From assembly GCA_018266835.1 (NCBI GenBank), contig JAFDZP010000003.1, positions 104,824-168,823 on the forward strand: DNA of 64,000 nt, read 5' to 3'. The notes under the pieces are model-generated. The model made no database searches and was not told where the DNA came from. It saw only the letters and a program-made list of their open reading frames with translations. The position numbers and the translations under genes were made by a program. This DNA comes from Bacteroidota bacterium (GTDB taxonomy: Bacteria; Bacteroidota; Ignavibacteria; Tepidaquicellales; Tepidaquicellaceae). Of this stretch, positions 32,200-50,693 are shown piece after piece (the stretch's first letter is position 1; each line of letters begins with the position of its first letter).

Positions 32200-33676
32200 C
32201 CGGCACAATTTGTTTAGCGGGTTTTTTAATACCTCTTAAACTTTTAATATCATTTAATGTAATTATCTTAAAAGCAAAAATTAAAACAAAAAATAGTACT
32301 ATATAAAGAATTTTAAAATACCACTCGTGGAGAAACGTTCCTGCAGTAAAGGAATAAATAATAAACGTAGCTATAGTGGAAAAGAAAATCAGATATATTT
32401 TACTGAACTCGTAATCAACTTTGTAGAACTTTTTTGTAATCATATATATGCCAATCATCATTGCAAGGTAACTGAAAAGCGTTGCATAAGCAGCGCCGGT
32501 AATTCCGAATTTAGGTATGAGAGCAAAGTTTACAATTATGTTCATTGCTGCGCCAATGCCGGTAATAAGCGGGAGATATTTTGTTTTTTTCTCTATGTAA
32601 ATCCCCGCCATGAGATTTATATATATACCATAGAATAAATATCCGGCAAGAACAATGGGAACAATGTATAATCCCGACCAGTATGCTTTACCCAACAGAT
32701 ATCCTTTAAACGGTAAAGGAATTTTTACAATGTTCTCTATATAAAAACTGAAGAATAAAAATAACACGCATGCAGCAAAAATAAAGAGTGTCATTATCTT
32801 TGAAAATATCTGTTTTGCATTTGGCTCTTTAGCAGTTTGTAAAAAGAACGGTCTCCATGCAAATTCATATATCGAGCAGAAAAGCATCATCAGAATTCCC
32901 ATACGGTAATTTGCCTGATAAATACCCACAGTTTGTTCATTGGTAAGATATCGAAGGATTGGTCTGTCAATCACCTGCACTAAATTCGCTCCTATACCTG
33001 CGGGAATAAGAGGAATAGAAAATTTAAGAATCTCTTTATAAAGCTGTTTGTTGAATCTGAAAGTTAAATTTTTGAATATAAGAGGAAGAAAGATTATAAA
33101 AGTTACGCCCGATGCAATTGCATTAGCTAAAAAAATTGCCTCAATTCCCCAGCGAAAAACTAAGAGGAAAAGTATATTAAGACTCACATTAATAGTTATG
33201 CTTAATACCTTTAATGTACCGAAGACTTTTGCTCTACGTCTTAATCTCAGGTAAGCAAATGGAATCAAGACGGCAGCATCAAAGAATAAAATCAGCGCAG
33301 AGTATCTTAATAATATCGGCGCGCGTTCAGGCGCTAACTGAAAAAGCGGAGCAAGATTTACAGGGAAAATGAAAAGTACAGCACTGAGAATGAATGAGTT
33401 TATAAAAATTGAAAAGTATGGTAAGGAGAAATTATCTTTCTTATCACCTATTTCGAGTGTTGATGCAAATTTAAAGTAGCCTGATTCAAATCCTATAGAA
33501 AAAAATACATTAAGAATTGCGATGTAAGCAAAAAGATTTGCCTGAATTCCGAACTCAGAAGGAGAAAAAATATTGGTGTAAAGCGGGACTAAAATAAATG
33601 CAAGAAATCTTTGAATGACAGTACTTGTGCCGTAAATGAGCGTGTCTTTGGATAAAGATTTAATTTTGTCTCGCAT
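32189..33676 (-). CDS. Polysaccharide flippase (Wzx/MATE-like, oligosaccharide exporter)
   Basis: A 495-residue integral membrane protein with about 12-14 helices. The N-terminus LSKDTLIYGTSTVIQRFLAFILVPLYTNIFSPSEFG matches the polysaccharide biosynthesis/export (PST) family, as does GITGAAYATLFSYLAMMIGIY near residue 395. These proteins flip lipid-linked glycan units across the inner membrane. No other glycan cluster genes are adjacent, which is unusual for a Wzx, so the substrate is open. Its 3' end overlaps the recombinase start. It has its own upstream gap. Confidence 0.87.
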   Translation of the reverse strand: MRDKIKSLSKDTLIYGTSTVIQRFLAFILVPLYTNIFSPSEFGIQANLFAYIAILNVFFSIGFESGYFKFASTLEIGDKKDNFSLPYFSIFINSFILSAVLFIFPVNLAPLFQLAPERAPILLRYSALILFFDAAVLIPFAYLRLRRRAKVFGTLKVLSITINVSLNILFLLVFRWGIEAIFLANAIASGVTFIIFLPLIFKNLTFRFNKQLYKEILKFSIPLIPAGIGANLVQVIDRPILRYLTNEQTVGIYQANYRMGILMMLFCSIYEFAWRPFFLQTAKEPNAKQIFSKIMTLFIFAACVLFLFFSFYIENIVKIPLPFKGYLLGKAYWSGLYIVPIVLAGYLFYGIYINLMAGIYIEKKTKYLPLITGIGAAMNIIVNFALIPKFGITGAAYATLFSYLAMMIGIYMITKKFYKVDYEFSKIYLIFFSTIATFIIYSFTAGTFLHEWYFKILYIVLFFVLIFAFKIITLNDIKSLRGIKKPAKQIVPDEL

Positions 33677-33726
33677 TGTAAATCAAAAATACTTAATTAC
33701 AAAATCTTATGAAATGATAATCATAT

Positions 33727-33769
33727 AAAAAAAGCCGCATCGAAATGAATCGATAGCGGCTTTAAAAAA
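33727..33769 (-). terminator. Terminator of the small secreted protein gene
   Basis: A stem AAAGCCGCATCGA / TCGATAGCGGCTTT with one mismatch/bulge, loop AATGAA, and long A/T runs on both sides. It follows the minus-strand stop at 33785. Confidence 0.8.
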
Positions 33770-33784
33770 ATAACTGTATTAAGA

Positions 33785-42013: not shown

Positions 42014-42379
42014 ATGAAAAAATTACTTCTTCTGTTAGTAGTTGCTGCAGGATTTTCATTCTTCAGCCCAAAAAATTCTTCAGCTCAGGCTTTAACTTTT
42101 GATGTTATCAACAATACTGGCGTAACTCTTGTTGATGTATATGTAACACCTGCTGAAACAGCAAATTGGGGAAATGATATCCTTCCAAATGACCTGTTTG
42201 AAAACGGTTCAACAGTAACAGTTAATATTCCTGCTGATTACGGCACAACATGTATGTTCGATATGAAAATAACGGACGGTGCAGGCGGACATATTACTTT
42301 CACAGGTATTGATGCTTGTAAATTAATTACATTACAAATCAATGGCGACGGCACATATTCATATGTAGCCACGAAGTAG
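42014..42379 (+). CDS. Small secreted protein, conserved hypothetical
   Basis: 121 residues with a clear signal peptide (cleavage after SSAQ, about residue 25). The mature ~96 residues look all-beta: FDVINNTGVTLVDVYVTPAETANWGNDILPN and VTVNIPADYGTTCMFDMKITDG, then FTGIDACKL. The N-terminal NNTG..L..VYVTP...ANWG.D.L pattern is seen in exported bacterial proteins of unknown function. Two Cys residues (TCMF and DACK) could form a disulfide in the periplasm. It is monocistronic, with a strong terminator shared with the convergent PLP enzyme gene. Confidence 0.65.
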   Translation: MKKLLLLLVVAAGFSFFSPKNSSAQALTFDVINNTGVTLVDVYVTPAETANWGNDILPNDLFENGSTVTVNIPADYGTTCMFDMKITDGAGGHITFTGIDACKLITLQINGDGTYSYVATK

Positions 42380-42401
42380 TTTTTATCCCATTCAGTTTTA
42401 C

Positions 42402-42430
42402 AAAAAAGGCGGAGAATATCCGCCTTTTTT
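42402..42430. terminator. Bidirectional terminator
   Basis: A perfect 12-bp stem AAAAAAGGCGGA / TCCGCCTTTTTT, loop GAATA. It lies between the convergent genes ending at 42379 and 42455, and its A/T flanks supply a T run in either direction. Confidence 0.9.
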
Positions 42431-42454
42431 GTTTGTACTAAATTTATTCTCTGA

Positions 42455-43621
42455 TTACAATTTTCTGAATCCTCTTTCTAAATCCTTTATTATATCTTCA
42501 TGATTCTCAATCCCTACAGCAAGTCTTATTAACGATTCAGAAATTCCGGTAGCAGCAAGCTGTTTCTGAGTATAAAATGGTTTCCATTGGGCAGCAGGAA
42601 GCGTTACAACGGTTTCAACTCCACCTAAACTCACTGCAAGTTTACATAATTTCAGAACTTCAACAAATTGCACAGCTTTTTTATATGTACAGTCCAGTTC
42701 AAAACTGAAACAGCCCCCGAATCCTCTCATTTGTGAAGCCGCAAGTCCATATTGCGCGTGAGATATTAATCCCGGATGATAAACCTTTTTTACTTTTAAA
42801 TGCTCCTCTAAATATTGTGCAATCAGTAATGCATTTTCATTCTGCTTCTTTACTCTCATTGGTAAAGTTTTGATACTTCTTAACAATAAAGATGCATCAT
42901 GTGGAGCGAGAACATGACCAACAACGTGGCCGTAATCCCAGCACTTATAAATAAATTCTTTTGAACCGCATACAACACCAGCTAAAACATCACTGTGGCC
43001 GCCAAGGTATTTTGTTGCGCTGTGAATTATAACATCAATTCCAAAATCTGCGGGATTTTGATTTATGGGAGAAGCAAATGTATTATCTATTAACGAAATT
43101 ATTTTTTTCTTTTTACATAATCTTCCTATGAATTCTAAATCAGTAATTTTCATCAATGGATTTGAAGGGGTCTCGACATAAATCAGTTTTGTACTTTTCC
43201 TAACTGCTTTTTCAAATGCTTTATTATCAGTCTGGTCAACAAATGTAGTTGTAATTCCGAATGCAGGAAGAACATCTCTCAGATATTTTATTGTTGTTGC
43301 GTATAAATTACTTTGCGCAACAATATGATCCCCCGATTTCAACGTACAAGCTATTGCAGAGCTGATGGCAGCCATGCCTGAACCGAAGGCAACTGAATCT
43401 TCCGTCTTCTCTAAATCCGCACAAACTCTTGAGAGCTGCTTCAAAGTAGGTGTAGCATAGCGGGCATAAAACCCAAGAGGTCTATCCTCAACAGAGATTT
43501 TAGCCATTGTCAGCAAATCTTTGGTCTTATAGTTAACAGATTGCCAAACAGGCGGGACGACTGCTCCGGTAACATTAAATTCATCACCTGAATGAATTAC
43601 AACTGTATCAAGATTTTTCAT
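42455..43621 (-). CDS. PLP-dependent Cys/Met metabolism enzyme (cystathionine gamma-synthase/lyase family)
   Basis: A 388-residue member of the Cys/Met metabolism PLP family. Visible are FGSGMAAISSAIACTLKSGDHIVA, the substrate-side YVETPSNPLMKITDLE segment, SLIDNTFASP, and the PLP-Lys motif SATKYLGGHSDVLAG. The C-terminal part has LAVSLGGVETVVTLPAA and GISESLIRLAVGIE. The family includes cystathionine gamma-synthase, gamma- and beta-lyases, and methionine gamma-lyase; sequence alone does not separate them. It shares an 11-13-base gap with the DUF1801 gene upstream. Cytoplasmic tetramer in the family. Confidence 0.88.
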   Translation of the reverse strand: MKNLDTVVIHSGDEFNVTGAVVPPVWQSVNYKTKDLLTMAKISVEDRPLGFYARYATPTLKQLSRVCADLEKTEDSVAFGSGMAAISSAIACTLKSGDHIVAQSNLYATTIKYLRDVLPAFGITTTFVDQTDNKAFEKAVRKSTKLIYVETPSNPLMKITDLEFIGRLCKKKKIISLIDNTFASPINQNPADFGIDVIIHSATKYLGGHSDVLAGVVCGSKEFIYKCWDYGHVVGHVLAPHDASLLLRSIKTLPMRVKKQNENALLIAQYLEEHLKVKKVYHPGLISHAQYGLAASQMRGFGGCFSFELDCTYKKAVQFVEVLKLCKLAVSLGGVETVVTLPAAQWKPFYTQKQLAATGISESLIRLAVGIENHEDIIKDLERGFRKL

Positions 43622-46385: not shown

Positions 46386-46574
46386 TCACCTTCTTACCTT
46401 GTAAGCGTACCAGAATGAGAAAACAAGAAGACCGACAAAAATTACTCCGAAAATTATTAACTGTATTCTCGTTTTAAGTCTGTCTTTTTTTCTTTGGATT
46501 CTTTCCATTTCGAGATCGTCATTGACGAAATCACCCTTTGAGGGGTCCCAATTTTTATAAATATTTATGCTCAT
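46386..46574 (-). CDS. Small single-helix membrane protein
   Basis: A 62-residue protein. The N-terminal half is charged (NKWDPSKGDFVNDDLEMERIQRKKDRLK), and the C-terminal half is one hydrophobic helix (IQLIIFGVIFVGLLVFSFWYAYK). No homologue is recognised. The NWDPSKGDFVNDD lead and basic segment before the helix suggest an inner-membrane protein with the N-terminus inside. It sits between the transketolase subunit and the possible structured RNA. Confidence 0.55.
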   Translation of the reverse strand: MSINIYKNWDPSKGDFVNDDLEMERIQRKKDRLKTRIQLIIFGVIFVGLLVFSFWYAYKVRR

Positions 46575-46677
46575 AGTTTTAATACGATAATTTTTTCTAA
46601 ATAGATTAATTTTTAATTAAATTTTAATTTAACTAAAAATAAAATTCACCTTTACTTTGTATAATTACAAATTTTAT

Positions 46678-46776
46678 TTCCCGGAAGCGGGAATAGATTA
46701 CGACCCGGATTTAGTAATCTGCTAAAACCCAGTAAGGATTGGAATAGTTTATTGGGAGTTGGTATTTAAAGAACCA
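46678..46776 (+). ncRNA. Candidate structured RNA or leader, four successive hairpins
   Basis: Visible stems: TTCCCG / CGGGAA around GAAG (46678-46693); AGATTAC / GTAATCT (46695-46720); CCCAGTAA / TTATTGGG with one G-U pair (46728-46756); TGGT / ACCA (46760-46776). The G/C-rich CGGG at 46688-46691 could pair instead with CCCG at 46704-46707, so two conformations are possible. The region is much less A-rich than its flanks and lies about 60 bases before the ATG of the membrane gene that begins the selD-mnmH operon. No known riboswitch or tRNA motif was recognised. The pairing is seen; the function is inference. Confidence 0.35.
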
Positions 46777-46834
46777 TAAACATACAAAAATACATATAAT
46801 TTTTTAATTTTCAAACAATATTAAGCGTTAAAGA

Positions 46835-47497
46835 ATGAATTTTATATATACTGATGACTTTTCCATTTTTCTTCTTGAGTATATTAACAAAAATATCAGC
46901 TTAAATACTCCCGATAGTGTAAATTTTTTTCAAATTTTCGTTTTACTGGTATGCTCATTCTTATTGAGTGTACTTTTTATTAAACTGTATAATCGCCAAG
47001 TTAATTTTAAACATTATAATCCTTCGGAATATGATGCCAGGCTCAGAAAGTTTGGCGGTCTGCTATATTTACTTCTACCAATATTGGTTTTTGATCTTAT
47101 AAGAAATTTATATCAATTATGTTCGTTTGGATATTTGTATACGGATAAAGCTCATTTCTTTTTAACTGAAATAAATGATACTTTTTTACGAAATTGGTGG
47201 AGTATTATTATTTATTTTATCGTATTCACCGGAAGTTTTAAAGTTGTTTTCTCTTTTTTTAATTTATTCTTTTTTATAAATAGAAAGCGCCTCTTTAAAT
47301 TTCTTATGCTCTATTATATACCGTTGAGTGTTATTTTTTACGGAATAAAATATTTTTTAATCACTCAGGTAGTAGAACCTAACCATGTAATAATCTATAC
47401 AGTGTTTACACAATGGAGTGAATCAATTTATGCTTCAGTAATAATTTTCTTTTATATATTGCTTTCAAGAAGAATTAACGGAGCTTTTTCAAAATAA
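46835..47497 (+). CDS. Integral membrane protein (possibly DUF2569-like), first gene of selenium operon
   Basis: A 220-residue protein with about five hydrophobic helices and very rich in Phe, Tyr and Ile. Recognisable stretches are RKFGGLLYLLLPILVFDLIRNLYQL and WWSIIIYFIVFTGSFKVVFSFFNLFFFI, which loosely fit the DUF2569 family; this is a tentative match. The gene ends 16 bases before selD, so it is almost surely co-transcribed with selD and mnmH. It might handle selenium uptake or be a bystander; nothing in its sequence decides. Confidence 0.55.
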   Translation: MNFIYTDDFSIFLLEYINKNISLNTPDSVNFFQIFVLLVCSFLLSVLFIKLYNRQVNFKHYNPSEYDARLRKFGGLLYLLLPILVFDLIRNLYQLCSFGYLYTDKAHFFLTEINDTFLRNWWSIIIYFIVFTGSFKVVFSFFNLFFFINRKRLFKFLMLYYIPLSVIFYGIKYFLITQVVEPNHVIIYTVFTQWSESIYASVIIFFYILLSRRINGAFSK

Positions 47498-47512: not shown

Positions 47513-48565
47513 ATGGATAACAAAGTAAGATTAACACAAATGGTCACTTCTGCCGGATGCGCAGCAAAAATATTTCCTCACATTTTATCAGATGCTTTAA
47601 AGGGAATCAACTGGCCGACCAATGAAAATGTAATAGTGGGATTTGAAGGAAAAGATGATGCGGGTGTTTACAAAATAAATGATGAACTTGCGCTGATACA
47701 TACCACGGATTTTTTTACTCCGGTAGTGGATGATCCCTATACCTATGGTCAGATTGCGGCTACTAATGCATTAAGCGATGTTTATGCAATGGGCGGAACT
47801 CCCATAAACGCACTCAATATACTTGCTTTCCCACAGAAAGAAGACATCAGCATTATTAAAGAAATTCTATCAGGCGGTGCTGATAAAGTCAGAGAAGCCA
47901 ACTGTGTAATTATCGGCGGGCATTCAGTTGATATCACAAATATTTTATACGGCTTAGCAGTTACAGGGACTATAAATCCGAAAGATATTAAAGGTAACGA
48001 TGGTGCAAAAAAAGGTGATGTGCTTATATTAACAAAAGGATTAGGTACAGGAGTTTTAAATAATATGGTTAAGTTTTCTGAATTAAGTCCGGAAATTTAC
48101 AAGGGCCTAATTTCTTCAATGACTCGATTGAACAGAAATGCTTCCGAATGTATGGTTCGAGCAAATGCAAATGCATGTACTGATGTTACCGGATTTGGTT
48201 TTGCCGGGCATGCAATGCAGCTTGCAAAAGCTAGCAATGTGAAACTTGTAATAGATGCAAATAAACTTCCTGTTTTAGATGGAGCAATAAATGCCGTTGA
48301 AAATAGTTTTCTTACACGCGGAGATAAATCCAACAGAGAATACACTAAAGATTTTTATTCGACTAAAGGAACAGTTAATAAAACTATCGAGCATCTGATT
48401 TTTGACCCTCAGACATCAGGAGGACTATTAATTTCTGTTCCCGAAAAAAATTCCGAAGCATTACTCATTGATTTAAAGAACAATGGAGATGAAAAAACTG
48501 CAATTATAGGTTATGTGGATAAACGAGAAGAATATCCTGCAGGTACTTTTATTTTAGAATATTGA
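47513..48565 (+). CDS. selD: Selenide, water dikinase (SelD, selenophosphate synthetase)
   Basis: Makes selenophosphate from selenide and ATP. The N-terminal loop LTQMVTSAGCAAKIFP carries the catalytic Cys16 (an ordinary TGC codon, not UGA) and Lys19. Further on are HTTDFFTPVVDDPYTYGQIAATNALSDVYAMGG and CIVIGGH-like CVIIGGHSVDI. The C-terminal half has the AIR-synthase fold: GFGFAGHAMQLAKAS and FDPQTSGGLLISV. Length 350 aa is normal. It is followed by mnmH with start codons almost touching the selD stop. Together they indicate selenophosphate for tRNA selenation. Confidence 0.95.
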   Translation: MDNKVRLTQMVTSAGCAAKIFPHILSDALKGINWPTNENVIVGFEGKDDAGVYKINDELALIHTTDFFTPVVDDPYTYGQIAATNALSDVYAMGGTPINALNILAFPQKEDISIIKEILSGGADKVREANCVIIGGHSVDITNILYGLAVTGTINPKDIKGNDGAKKGDVLILTKGLGTGVLNNMVKFSELSPEIYKGLISSMTRLNRNASECMVRANANACTDVTGFGFAGHAMQLAKASNVKLVIDANKLPVLDGAINAVENSFLTRGDKSNREYTKDFYSTKGTVNKTIEHLIFDPQTSGGLLISVPEKNSEALLIDLKNNGDEKTAIIGYVDKREEYPAGTFILEY

Positions 48566-48576
48566 GAATAGAAAAA

Positions 48577-49743
48577 ATGATTCCCGAAATACGAACAGAT
48601 AAAGAGTTATTTGAATTTATTCAGAATGCTAGAATTGATGAAAGTATTTCATTAAAAGATATTTTCTCAAAATACTTATTTGAGCAGATTAATATAGATG
48701 ACCTGCTTAAAAAAATTAGAAGCGAAAACACTTTATTAATCGATGCAAGAAGTGAAAAAGAATTTAACGAATCTTCCCTGCCCTTTGCAAAAAACTTTCC
48801 TGTATTAAATAATCTCGAAAGACATAACGTAGGTTTGCTTTATAGAAAATATTCGCAGTCTGCGGCAGTCTGGCTGGCAACAGAGTATGCAAATCCAAAA
48901 TCAGTTTCTTTACAAAAATTTCTAACTGATAATGAAGCAAACAAAAAAGATGTAATTGTTTTTTGCTGGAGAGGCGGCGGACGAAGCAAGTATCTTTCAA
49001 AAATGATTTCCGATTTGGGATACAATGTAAAGTTTTTATCCGGTGGACAGAAAGCTTACAGAAAAAGAGTAAATGATTTTTTTTCAAATCAAAATCAAAA
49101 ATACAATCTACTCGAGTTGCGAGGGATGACTGGTTCAGGCAAAACAGAACTCCTGAATGCTTTAAAAAATGATTTACCTGTAATAGACCTTGAATTCGCT
49201 GCAAAACACTATTCAAGTTTATTCGGAAATATTCCGTATGATATAAATAATTTTCCGCGCGTTAAAAATCAAAGCGCTTTTGAAAATTCATTGTTTGAAC
49301 AATTCGCAAAATATGATTTAGAGAGTCCCCCTTTATTTTTAATAGAGAGTGAAAGTAAACGCGTCGGTGATTTTGAAATCCCTGCACCTTTATATAGAGC
49401 GATTGAAGAGACGCCATGTATCCAGATAAATTCAAGCTTTGAAAATAGAATAAGGCGTATTGTAAAAGATTATTTCGGTGAAGATAATAGGGGGTTAGAA
49501 CCAATGAAAAAAATATTCGCAGACCGTGAAAAATTTTTCAAGGCGCAGTTAAGCACAGAAGTTTACGGAAGATTATTGGACTATTTAGAAAAGGGTGAAG
49601 TAAGTAAATTTACCGACGAAATGATGGAGAAATATTATGATAAACGTTACAAAGTTAAACCAAAAGAGCCCATTGCCGAGATAAGCTCTGATAATATCAG
49701 AGAAGCAAAATCACAAGTAATTGAAATTTATAAAAAATTATAA
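48577..49743 (+). CDS. mnmH: tRNA 2-selenouridine synthase (MnmH/SelU)
   Basis: Converts 2-thiouridine to 2-selenouridine at the wobble position of certain tRNAs, using selenophosphate and geranylation. The N-terminal rhodanese domain holds LLIDARSEKEFNESSLPFAKN and the active Cys in VIVFCWRGGGRS. The C-terminal P-loop domain has GMTGSGKTELLNAL. ATG at 48577 is preferred; a TTG at 48562 overlaps the selD stop. From that TTG, Cys is residue 135. An extra ~45 residues precede the rhodanese domain. It directly follows selD in the same operon. Confidence 0.93.
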   Translation: MIPEIRTDKELFEFIQNARIDESISLKDIFSKYLFEQINIDDLLKKIRSENTLLIDARSEKEFNESSLPFAKNFPVLNNLERHNVGLLYRKYSQSAAVWLATEYANPKSVSLQKFLTDNEANKKDVIVFCWRGGGRSKYLSKMISDLGYNVKFLSGGQKAYRKRVNDFFSNQNQKYNLLELRGMTGSGKTELLNALKNDLPVIDLEFAAKHYSSLFGNIPYDINNFPRVKNQSAFENSLFEQFAKYDLESPPLFLIESESKRVGDFEIPAPLYRAIEETPCIQINSSFENRIRRIVKDYFGEDNRGLEPMKKIFADREKFFKAQLSTEVYGRLLDYLEKGEVSKFTDEMMEKYYDKRYKVKPKEPIAEISSDNIREAKSQVIEIYKKL

Positions 49744-49751
49744 AAGTTTAA

Positions 49752-50693
49752 TTGGATTTATTTACAATAGTATTAACAGTCTTAGGTCTTTGTTTATTTG
49801 AAATAATAAGCAGCGTTGATAATGCAATTATAAATGCAGAAGTATTATCAACAATGTCCGAGAAAGCCCGGAAGTGGTTTCTGTTCTGGGGACTCCTATT
49901 CGCAGTTTTTCTTGTGCGCGGGTTGCTTCCTCTTGTAATAATTTACTTTACTGTTCCGAACTTAAGTCTTGGCGGCGCAATAACTGCAGCCTTCAGCAGT
50001 GACCCGCAGGTTCATAAAGCCATTGATGATGCTTCCCCTGTTTTACTTATTGGCGGTGGTACATTTCTTGTCTTTTTATTTTTATACTGGCTCTTTCAGG
50101 AAGAAAAGCATTACGCATTTAAAATTGAAAAATTCTTTGCTAAACATGGAATCTGGTTTTATGCAATAGCTTCTATTATTTTATCAGGGCTGATCTGGTT
50201 TTCTGTTAAGCTGAATCCTGTAATGGCTTTCGGAGCAGCAATGGGTGCTTCGGCATTTTTCCTCACCTCGGGATTCAAGACAAACGCCGAAGAACAGGAA
50301 AAGAAATTAATGAAAAGAGGTATGTCTGATATAAGCAAAATAATTTATCTTGAGCTGATTGATGCAACATTTTCTATTGACGGAGTTTTAGGTGCATTTG
50401 CTTTCACATTATCAGTACCATTGATTTTAGTAGGAAACGGATTGGGAGCATTAGTGCTGAGACAGTTAACTGTCGGCAACATTGACAGGATAAAACAATA
50501 TTTATATCTGAAAAACGGCGCATTATATTCCGTATTTTTCCTTGGAATAATAATGATAATAGACAGCTTCAGATTACATATTCCCGAATGGGTTTCTCCT
50601 GCTATTACATTTTTAATTGTTGGCTATTTTTTCTACAGGTCGAGGAAAGAAATTAATCGTAAAGAAAGATTACAAAGTAAAAAAGGGGCTTAA
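49752..50693 (+). CDS. DUF475/TerC-like integral membrane protein
   Basis: A 313-residue protein with about eight helices, starting at TTG (no nearby ATG). The conserved charged positions of the family are visible: FEIISSVDNAIINAEVL near residue 20 and IYLELIDATFSIDGVLGAFAFTLS near residue 200. Acidic residues within helices are typical of TerC-type putative metal or ion transporters; DUF475 function is not established. It starts 8 bases after mnmH, making it the fourth gene of the operon. A terminator overlaps its stop. Confidence 0.87.
   Translation: MDLFTIVLTVLGLCLFEIISSVDNAIINAEVLSTMSEKARKWFLFWGLLFAVFLVRGLLPLVIIYFTVPNLSLGGAITAAFSSDPQVHKAIDDASPVLLIGGGTFLVFLFLYWLFQEEKHYAFKIEKFFAKHGIWFYAIASIILSGLIWFSVKLNPVMAFGAAMGASAFFLTSGFKTNAEEQEKKLMKRGMSDISKIIYLELIDATFSIDGVLGAFAFTLSVPLILVGNGLGALVLRQLTVGNIDRIKQYLYLKNGALYSVFFLGIIMIIDSFRLHIPEWVSPAITFLIVGYFFYRSRKEINRKERLQSKKGA

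Follow-up and report, generated by a model that had tools for sequence, protein, structure and literature searches.

We describe a candidate leader of about 85 bases on the + strand, upstream of a four-gene, selenium-related operon, in a 64,000-nucleotide stretch of bacterial DNA (the window). There is about an even chance that it is an orphan, cis-acting structured leader of this DUF2569-selD-mnmH-TerC operon, restricted to one genus. In our best explanation the leader RNA would most likely fold as a closing stem, P1, around three hairpins, P2 to P4, with the loops of P2 and P3 able to pair; alternatively, the 5' strand of P1 could pair with that of P2 to form hairpin H1, giving two mutually exclusive folds. 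A shift between these folds, driven by a small molecule, ion, or protein, would have cis control of the operon as its likeliest use. The evidence for this reading (sequence, conservation in one relative, and a consensus fold better than chance) is computed, and from it we infer transcription of the element, formation of P1-P4, exchange of the folds, and the operon as target. If real, the element is an orphan among structured leaders, compact and testable in its architecture and found in one genus; with two sequences it is a lead, too little at present for naming a class.

The operon consists of the following genes:
46835..47497, + strand: first gene, DUF2569 membrane protein (Pfam PF10754, E = 2.4e-8)
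47513..48565, + strand: second gene, presumably selD, selenophosphate synthetase (AIRS domains)
48562..49743, + strand: third gene, presumably mnmH (selU, ybbB), tRNA 2-selenouridine synthase (Rhodanese domain, place behind selD)
49752..50693, + strand: fourth gene, DUF475/TerC family membrane protein (Pfam PF04332 and PF03741)

A first-pass annotation of the window had placed the element before a selD-mnmH operon; the operon is right, but its first gene encodes the DUF2569 protein (46835-47497), with selD second and mnmH third. The DUF2569 gene occurs in 2 of 59 relatives, the same two genomes that carry the element, and its product evolves fast, since it is 45% identical between the two species compared with 83% for SelD. 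A search for selA scored in neither of these genomes and was positive in the Escherichia coli control; because selD and mnmH are present and selA did not score, both probably use selenium only for selenouridine in tRNA. If the element is real, it raises the question of why a genus-specific DUF2569 membrane protein precedes selenouridine genes.

The element lies in an intergenic gap of 260 bases, flanked on one side by a divergent − strand unit (a 62-amino-acid frame and a transketolase half) and on the other by the + strand operon. The coordinates and sequence of 46678-46776 given in the first-pass annotation are correct. Folding energy for 46670-46790 gives z = −2.4 on the + strand (2 of 200 shuffles equally good) and z = −0.8 on the − strand (47 of 200), and the 99-base leader by itself gives z = −2.6 (5 of 500). 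The minimum-energy fold of the + strand contains three hairpins:
46678..46693, + strand: H1, pairing 46678-46683 with 46688-46693, which excludes P1 and P2
46695-46701/46714-46720, + strand: H2
46728-46736, + strand: H3, pairing near 46748-46756

The element is thus more structured than chance, and the earlier description of four hairpins in succession is partly right: three appear in this fold, which lacks the fourth (GGT...ACC, near 46762-46776); the sequence of that hairpin is not conserved in the related genome described below. The same annotation pointed to a CGGG segment (46688-46691) able to pair with either of two CCCG partners, and both are present (46680-46683 and 46704-46707). Taken alone this arrangement is ordinary, because CCCG occurs in 2,094 of 5,000 shuffles of the downstream stretch; strict CCCG and GGGAR in nested order occur in 386 of 5,000, and nested P1 and P2 partners with G-U allowed in 1,276 of 5,000. 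No tRNA or tmRNA was found within the 64-kb window. A leader peptide was considered and set aside from the sequence alone: no ATG was seen in the conserved core, nor a frame shared by the two species.

A DNA search of 59 genomes identified the same element before the same operon in one other genome, G001, of the same genus, with 84% identity over query bases 35 to 110, compared with 45% for the protein encoded downstream; further matches in G023 and G035 proved not to carry the element. The spacing from element to ATG is about 76 bases in the window genome and about 80 in G001, and GATTACGACCCGG, TTTAGTAATCT, GATTGGAATAG, and TTGGGAGT are blocks identical between the two. The core of the element is 85% identical and its direct flanks 53 to 67%. 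By itself this conservation would be only modest evidence, because coding DNA in the aligned region is already 75% and noncoding DNA 76% identical, and an AT-rich block at 46575-46640, on the 5' side of the 62-amino-acid − strand frame, is about 93% identical, above the leader. That block probably serves to control the divergent transketolase unit.

Most differences between the two species within the element fall in loops or preserve pairs. The two-species consensus consists of a closing stem around three abutting hairpins with no linkers between them:
46678..46758, + strand: whole element, P1 to P1 (consensus fold with G001; models R2 and R3 detect the window genome and G001)
46678..46682, + strand: P1 5' arm, partner 46754-46758, top pair U-G here and C-G in G001
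46754..46758, + strand: P1 3' arm GGGAG, inside TTGGGAGT, identical in G001
46688..46707, + strand: P2 hairpin, CGGG 46688-46691 with CCCG 46704-46707 around a 12-base loop (46692-46703), arms identical in both species
46708..46728, + strand: P3 hairpin, 46708-46715 with 46721-46728; two pairs vary, pairing kept in both
46729..46742, + strand: P4 hairpin CCAGU/AUUGG, 46729-46733 with 46738-46742; loop 46734-46737 varies, stem invariant including a G-U pair
46695..46700, + strand: AGAUUA, part of the P2 loop, able to pair with UAAUCU (46715-46720) at the P3 loop, sequence invariant in G001
46743..46753, + strand: joining stretch from P4 to P1, single-stranded in P1-P4, AATAG identical in G001

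The A46709/A46727 mismatch in P3 is missing on both sides in G001, and the complementarity of the P2 and P3 loops makes a kissing pseudoknot possible. All 42 of the 42 pair cells of P1-P4 are standard; sliding the partners by one to three columns lowers this proportion to 21 to 61%. The covariation proposed as a check in the first-pass annotation could be looked for in two sequences only, where 18 of the 21 pairs are invariant, 3 vary on one side, and none on both; with two sequences, covariation would not settle the P1-P4 fold. The three varying pairs exchange G-U for Watson-Crick pairing. Because such exchanges are tolerated on the + strand only, a + strand reading, sense to the operon, is favored, and the invariant G-U pair of P4 likewise fits that strand alone.

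The leading rival is that these are chance hairpins with no RNA function, lying in intergenic DNA that is conserved overall because the two species are fairly close. We regard this as unlikely, at somewhat better than one chance in five. In its favor are the region-wide identity, the other noncoding blocks that are equally conserved, the frequency of the CCCG partner in shuffles, and the failure to find a homologue outside the genus. Against it, identity falls in the direct flanks, most differences lie in loops or preserve pairs, and the consensus fold is better than shuffled alignments. On the + strand the consensus reaches −20.1 kcal/mol (z = −4.6), with none of 2,000 column shuffles as good; the − strand (−15.5, z = −4.2) is also better than its shuffles, which counts against the leader reading. 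The hand alignment behind these values was made after the folds had been viewed and may lean towards P1-P4, but z = −4.2 is still obtained when this stretch is aligned mechanically with BLAST. A control scan covered DNA syntenic with G001 at 308 places on both strands, 616 aligned stretches in all; the element scores −5.2 when aligned by hand and −4.2 to −4.4 when aligned with BLAST, near the top of the set. Only 33684-33783 and 42336-42507 are clearly better (z = −5.7 to −10.8), and 32988-33092 on the − strand scores −4.3. Judged by eye, both of the better stretches contain strong, conserved, plain intrinsic terminators, at 33677-33784 and 42380-42454.

Beyond P1-P4, the alternative fold also appears to be retained. 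H1 draws on the 5' strand of P1 and that of P2, so it cannot coexist with either stem; the CGGG segment pairs either locally in H1 or within P2, and the AGAUUA and UAAUCU strands form H2 in the alternative fold. In G001 the H1 stem is kept, with its outer U-A replaced by C-G and a longer loop, and the count of H1 changes depends on the alignment, as an indel adjoins H1. With kissing pairs not counted, P1-P4 has an energy of −16.2 and the fold of H1, H2, and H3 one of −28.3 in the window species, compared with −21.9 for P1-P4 and −28.1 for the best fold in G001. P1-P4 is thus not the minimum-energy fold in either species, which counts against it, though loop contact and ligand stand outside the energies computed. 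Preservation of both folds in two species suggests a switch, and a two-state leader is plausible on these comparisons.

A second alternative is a separate small RNA, made from the intergenic region and acting elsewhere, rather than an operon leader. The compact fold, the place between divergent genes, and the absence of an association with selD across the family would all suit such an RNA. The element nevertheless keeps its spacing to the next ATG and the orientation of the operon, and no + strand terminator follows it: across 46560-46860 there are 0 terminator-like sites. We therefore give the small RNA roughly one chance in eight. By the same result, classical termination attenuation is not indicated. 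No + strand promoter was recognized either, and this and the lack of a following terminator count against the leader as well.

Given the same low probability is a DNA operator, in which a regulator would recognize inverted repeats such as AGATTAC-N12-GTAATCT, located where the transketolase and selD units diverge. Transcription units do diverge at this place, and the 7-base arms of that repeat are identical in both species at nearly the same spacing (N12 and N11). An operator would not be expected to differ between species in H1 arm sequence and loop length, as this element does, or to vary at G-U pairs that only RNA tolerates, and it leaves the conserved joints and P4 unexplained.

The distribution of the favored leader was searched with models R1 to R3. 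At E up to 0.1, R1 detects it in 2 of 29 genomes of the family; relaxed to E up to 1 across 59 relatives, it adds five weak matches, in family genomes, that aligned poorly, lacked the conserved core, and were judged to be chance. Five weak matches to R2 (E up to 0.5, 40 genomes) were likewise judged to be chance from their scores and poor alignments, four having been aligned and the one at locus L053 scored only; an ORF listing made for locus L049 alone places its match inside a 354-amino-acid frame. Of 294 genomes of the class, R3 detects the element in 2 and gives one weak match (E = 0.018) in G293; of 395 from the phylum, a set that did not list G001, it detects only the window's own copy. 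Scanning for the exact core pattern gave a single stretch, apparently that of G001, in a collection of 84,980 species, none in viral contigs, and only the window's own among 149 genomes of the class, which do not include G001. DNA and model searches reported no second copy in the window's own genome. The element thus appears, from these searches, to be known from two species of one genus only.

By comparison, selD is present in 28 of 29 family genomes, of which 2 carry the element, and mnmH follows selD in 27 of 28 loci (the exception, L011, is a short locus in which none was found). Because selD is so widespread and the leader so rare, the element is a property of the genus and not of selD. 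These counts also tell against the link to selenium or tRNA modification drawn in the first-pass annotation, and selenium is not favored as the signal. A selenium- or selenouridine-responsive leader, as that annotation proposed, is very improbable: the presence of selD and mnmH in the operon and the probable restriction of selenium use to selenouridine speak for it, but the other 26 selD-bearing family genomes have no detectable copy, and in 20 of those 26 loci selD merely follows another same-strand frame (the preceding frame is divergent in the other 6). In G004, of another genus, a transketolase half lies upstream of selD-mnmH on the opposite strand, with neither DUF2569 nor the leader. This absence of both, despite the transketolase half upstream, suggests that the leader arrived together with DUF2569.

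The element also resembles no RNA family that we could match, in agreement with the first-pass annotation. Rfam 15 gives no match in the window at the gathering cut-off; relaxing the limit to E up to 10 yields only hits that fall far short of it, to families such as U6, a lncRNA region, and HgcG, taken as chance. The same holds for G001. Riboswitch aptamers with a closing stem and a loop-loop contact exist, as in the purine riboswitch, and the element is similar in that P1 closes the junction, two hairpin loops can pair, and the position is that of a leader. It differs in having three hairpins rather than two with no linker between them, no Rfam match, and no recognized expression platform. 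The yybP-ykoY manganese riboswitch is known upstream of TerC-family genes, and a TerC-family gene belongs to this operon; here, however, it is the fourth gene, and Rfam gives no yybP-ykoY match, whether at the gathering score or with E relaxed to 10. A fuller account would be a riboswitch-like class that is young and specific to this genus: a four-way junction with kissing P2 and P3 loops, whose P1 and P2 strands can alternatively be sequestered in H1, and whose signal controls the DUF2569-selD-mnmH-TerC operon. We think this account improbable, with somewhat less than one chance in five. Two papers (PMC2864571, PMC6429828) concern orphan candidate structured RNAs from comparative genomics, conserved and structured with no assigned role, as this element would be; support for such candidates comes from how homologous sequences mutate (PMC2864571), compared with two sequences here. 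Among the papers found on riboswitches together with selD or selenophosphate synthetase, or on DUF2569, none describes such a leader by its title or the opening of its abstract.

Two features of other selD loci were seen along the way. GC-rich palindromic repeats (CCCCC...GGGGG type) occur at 1310-1440 of locus L018 and upstream of selD in G004, representing two other genera, and by eye are unrelated to the leader. The selD match in G005 contains one in-frame TAA, which may reflect a broken gene or an error in the assembly.
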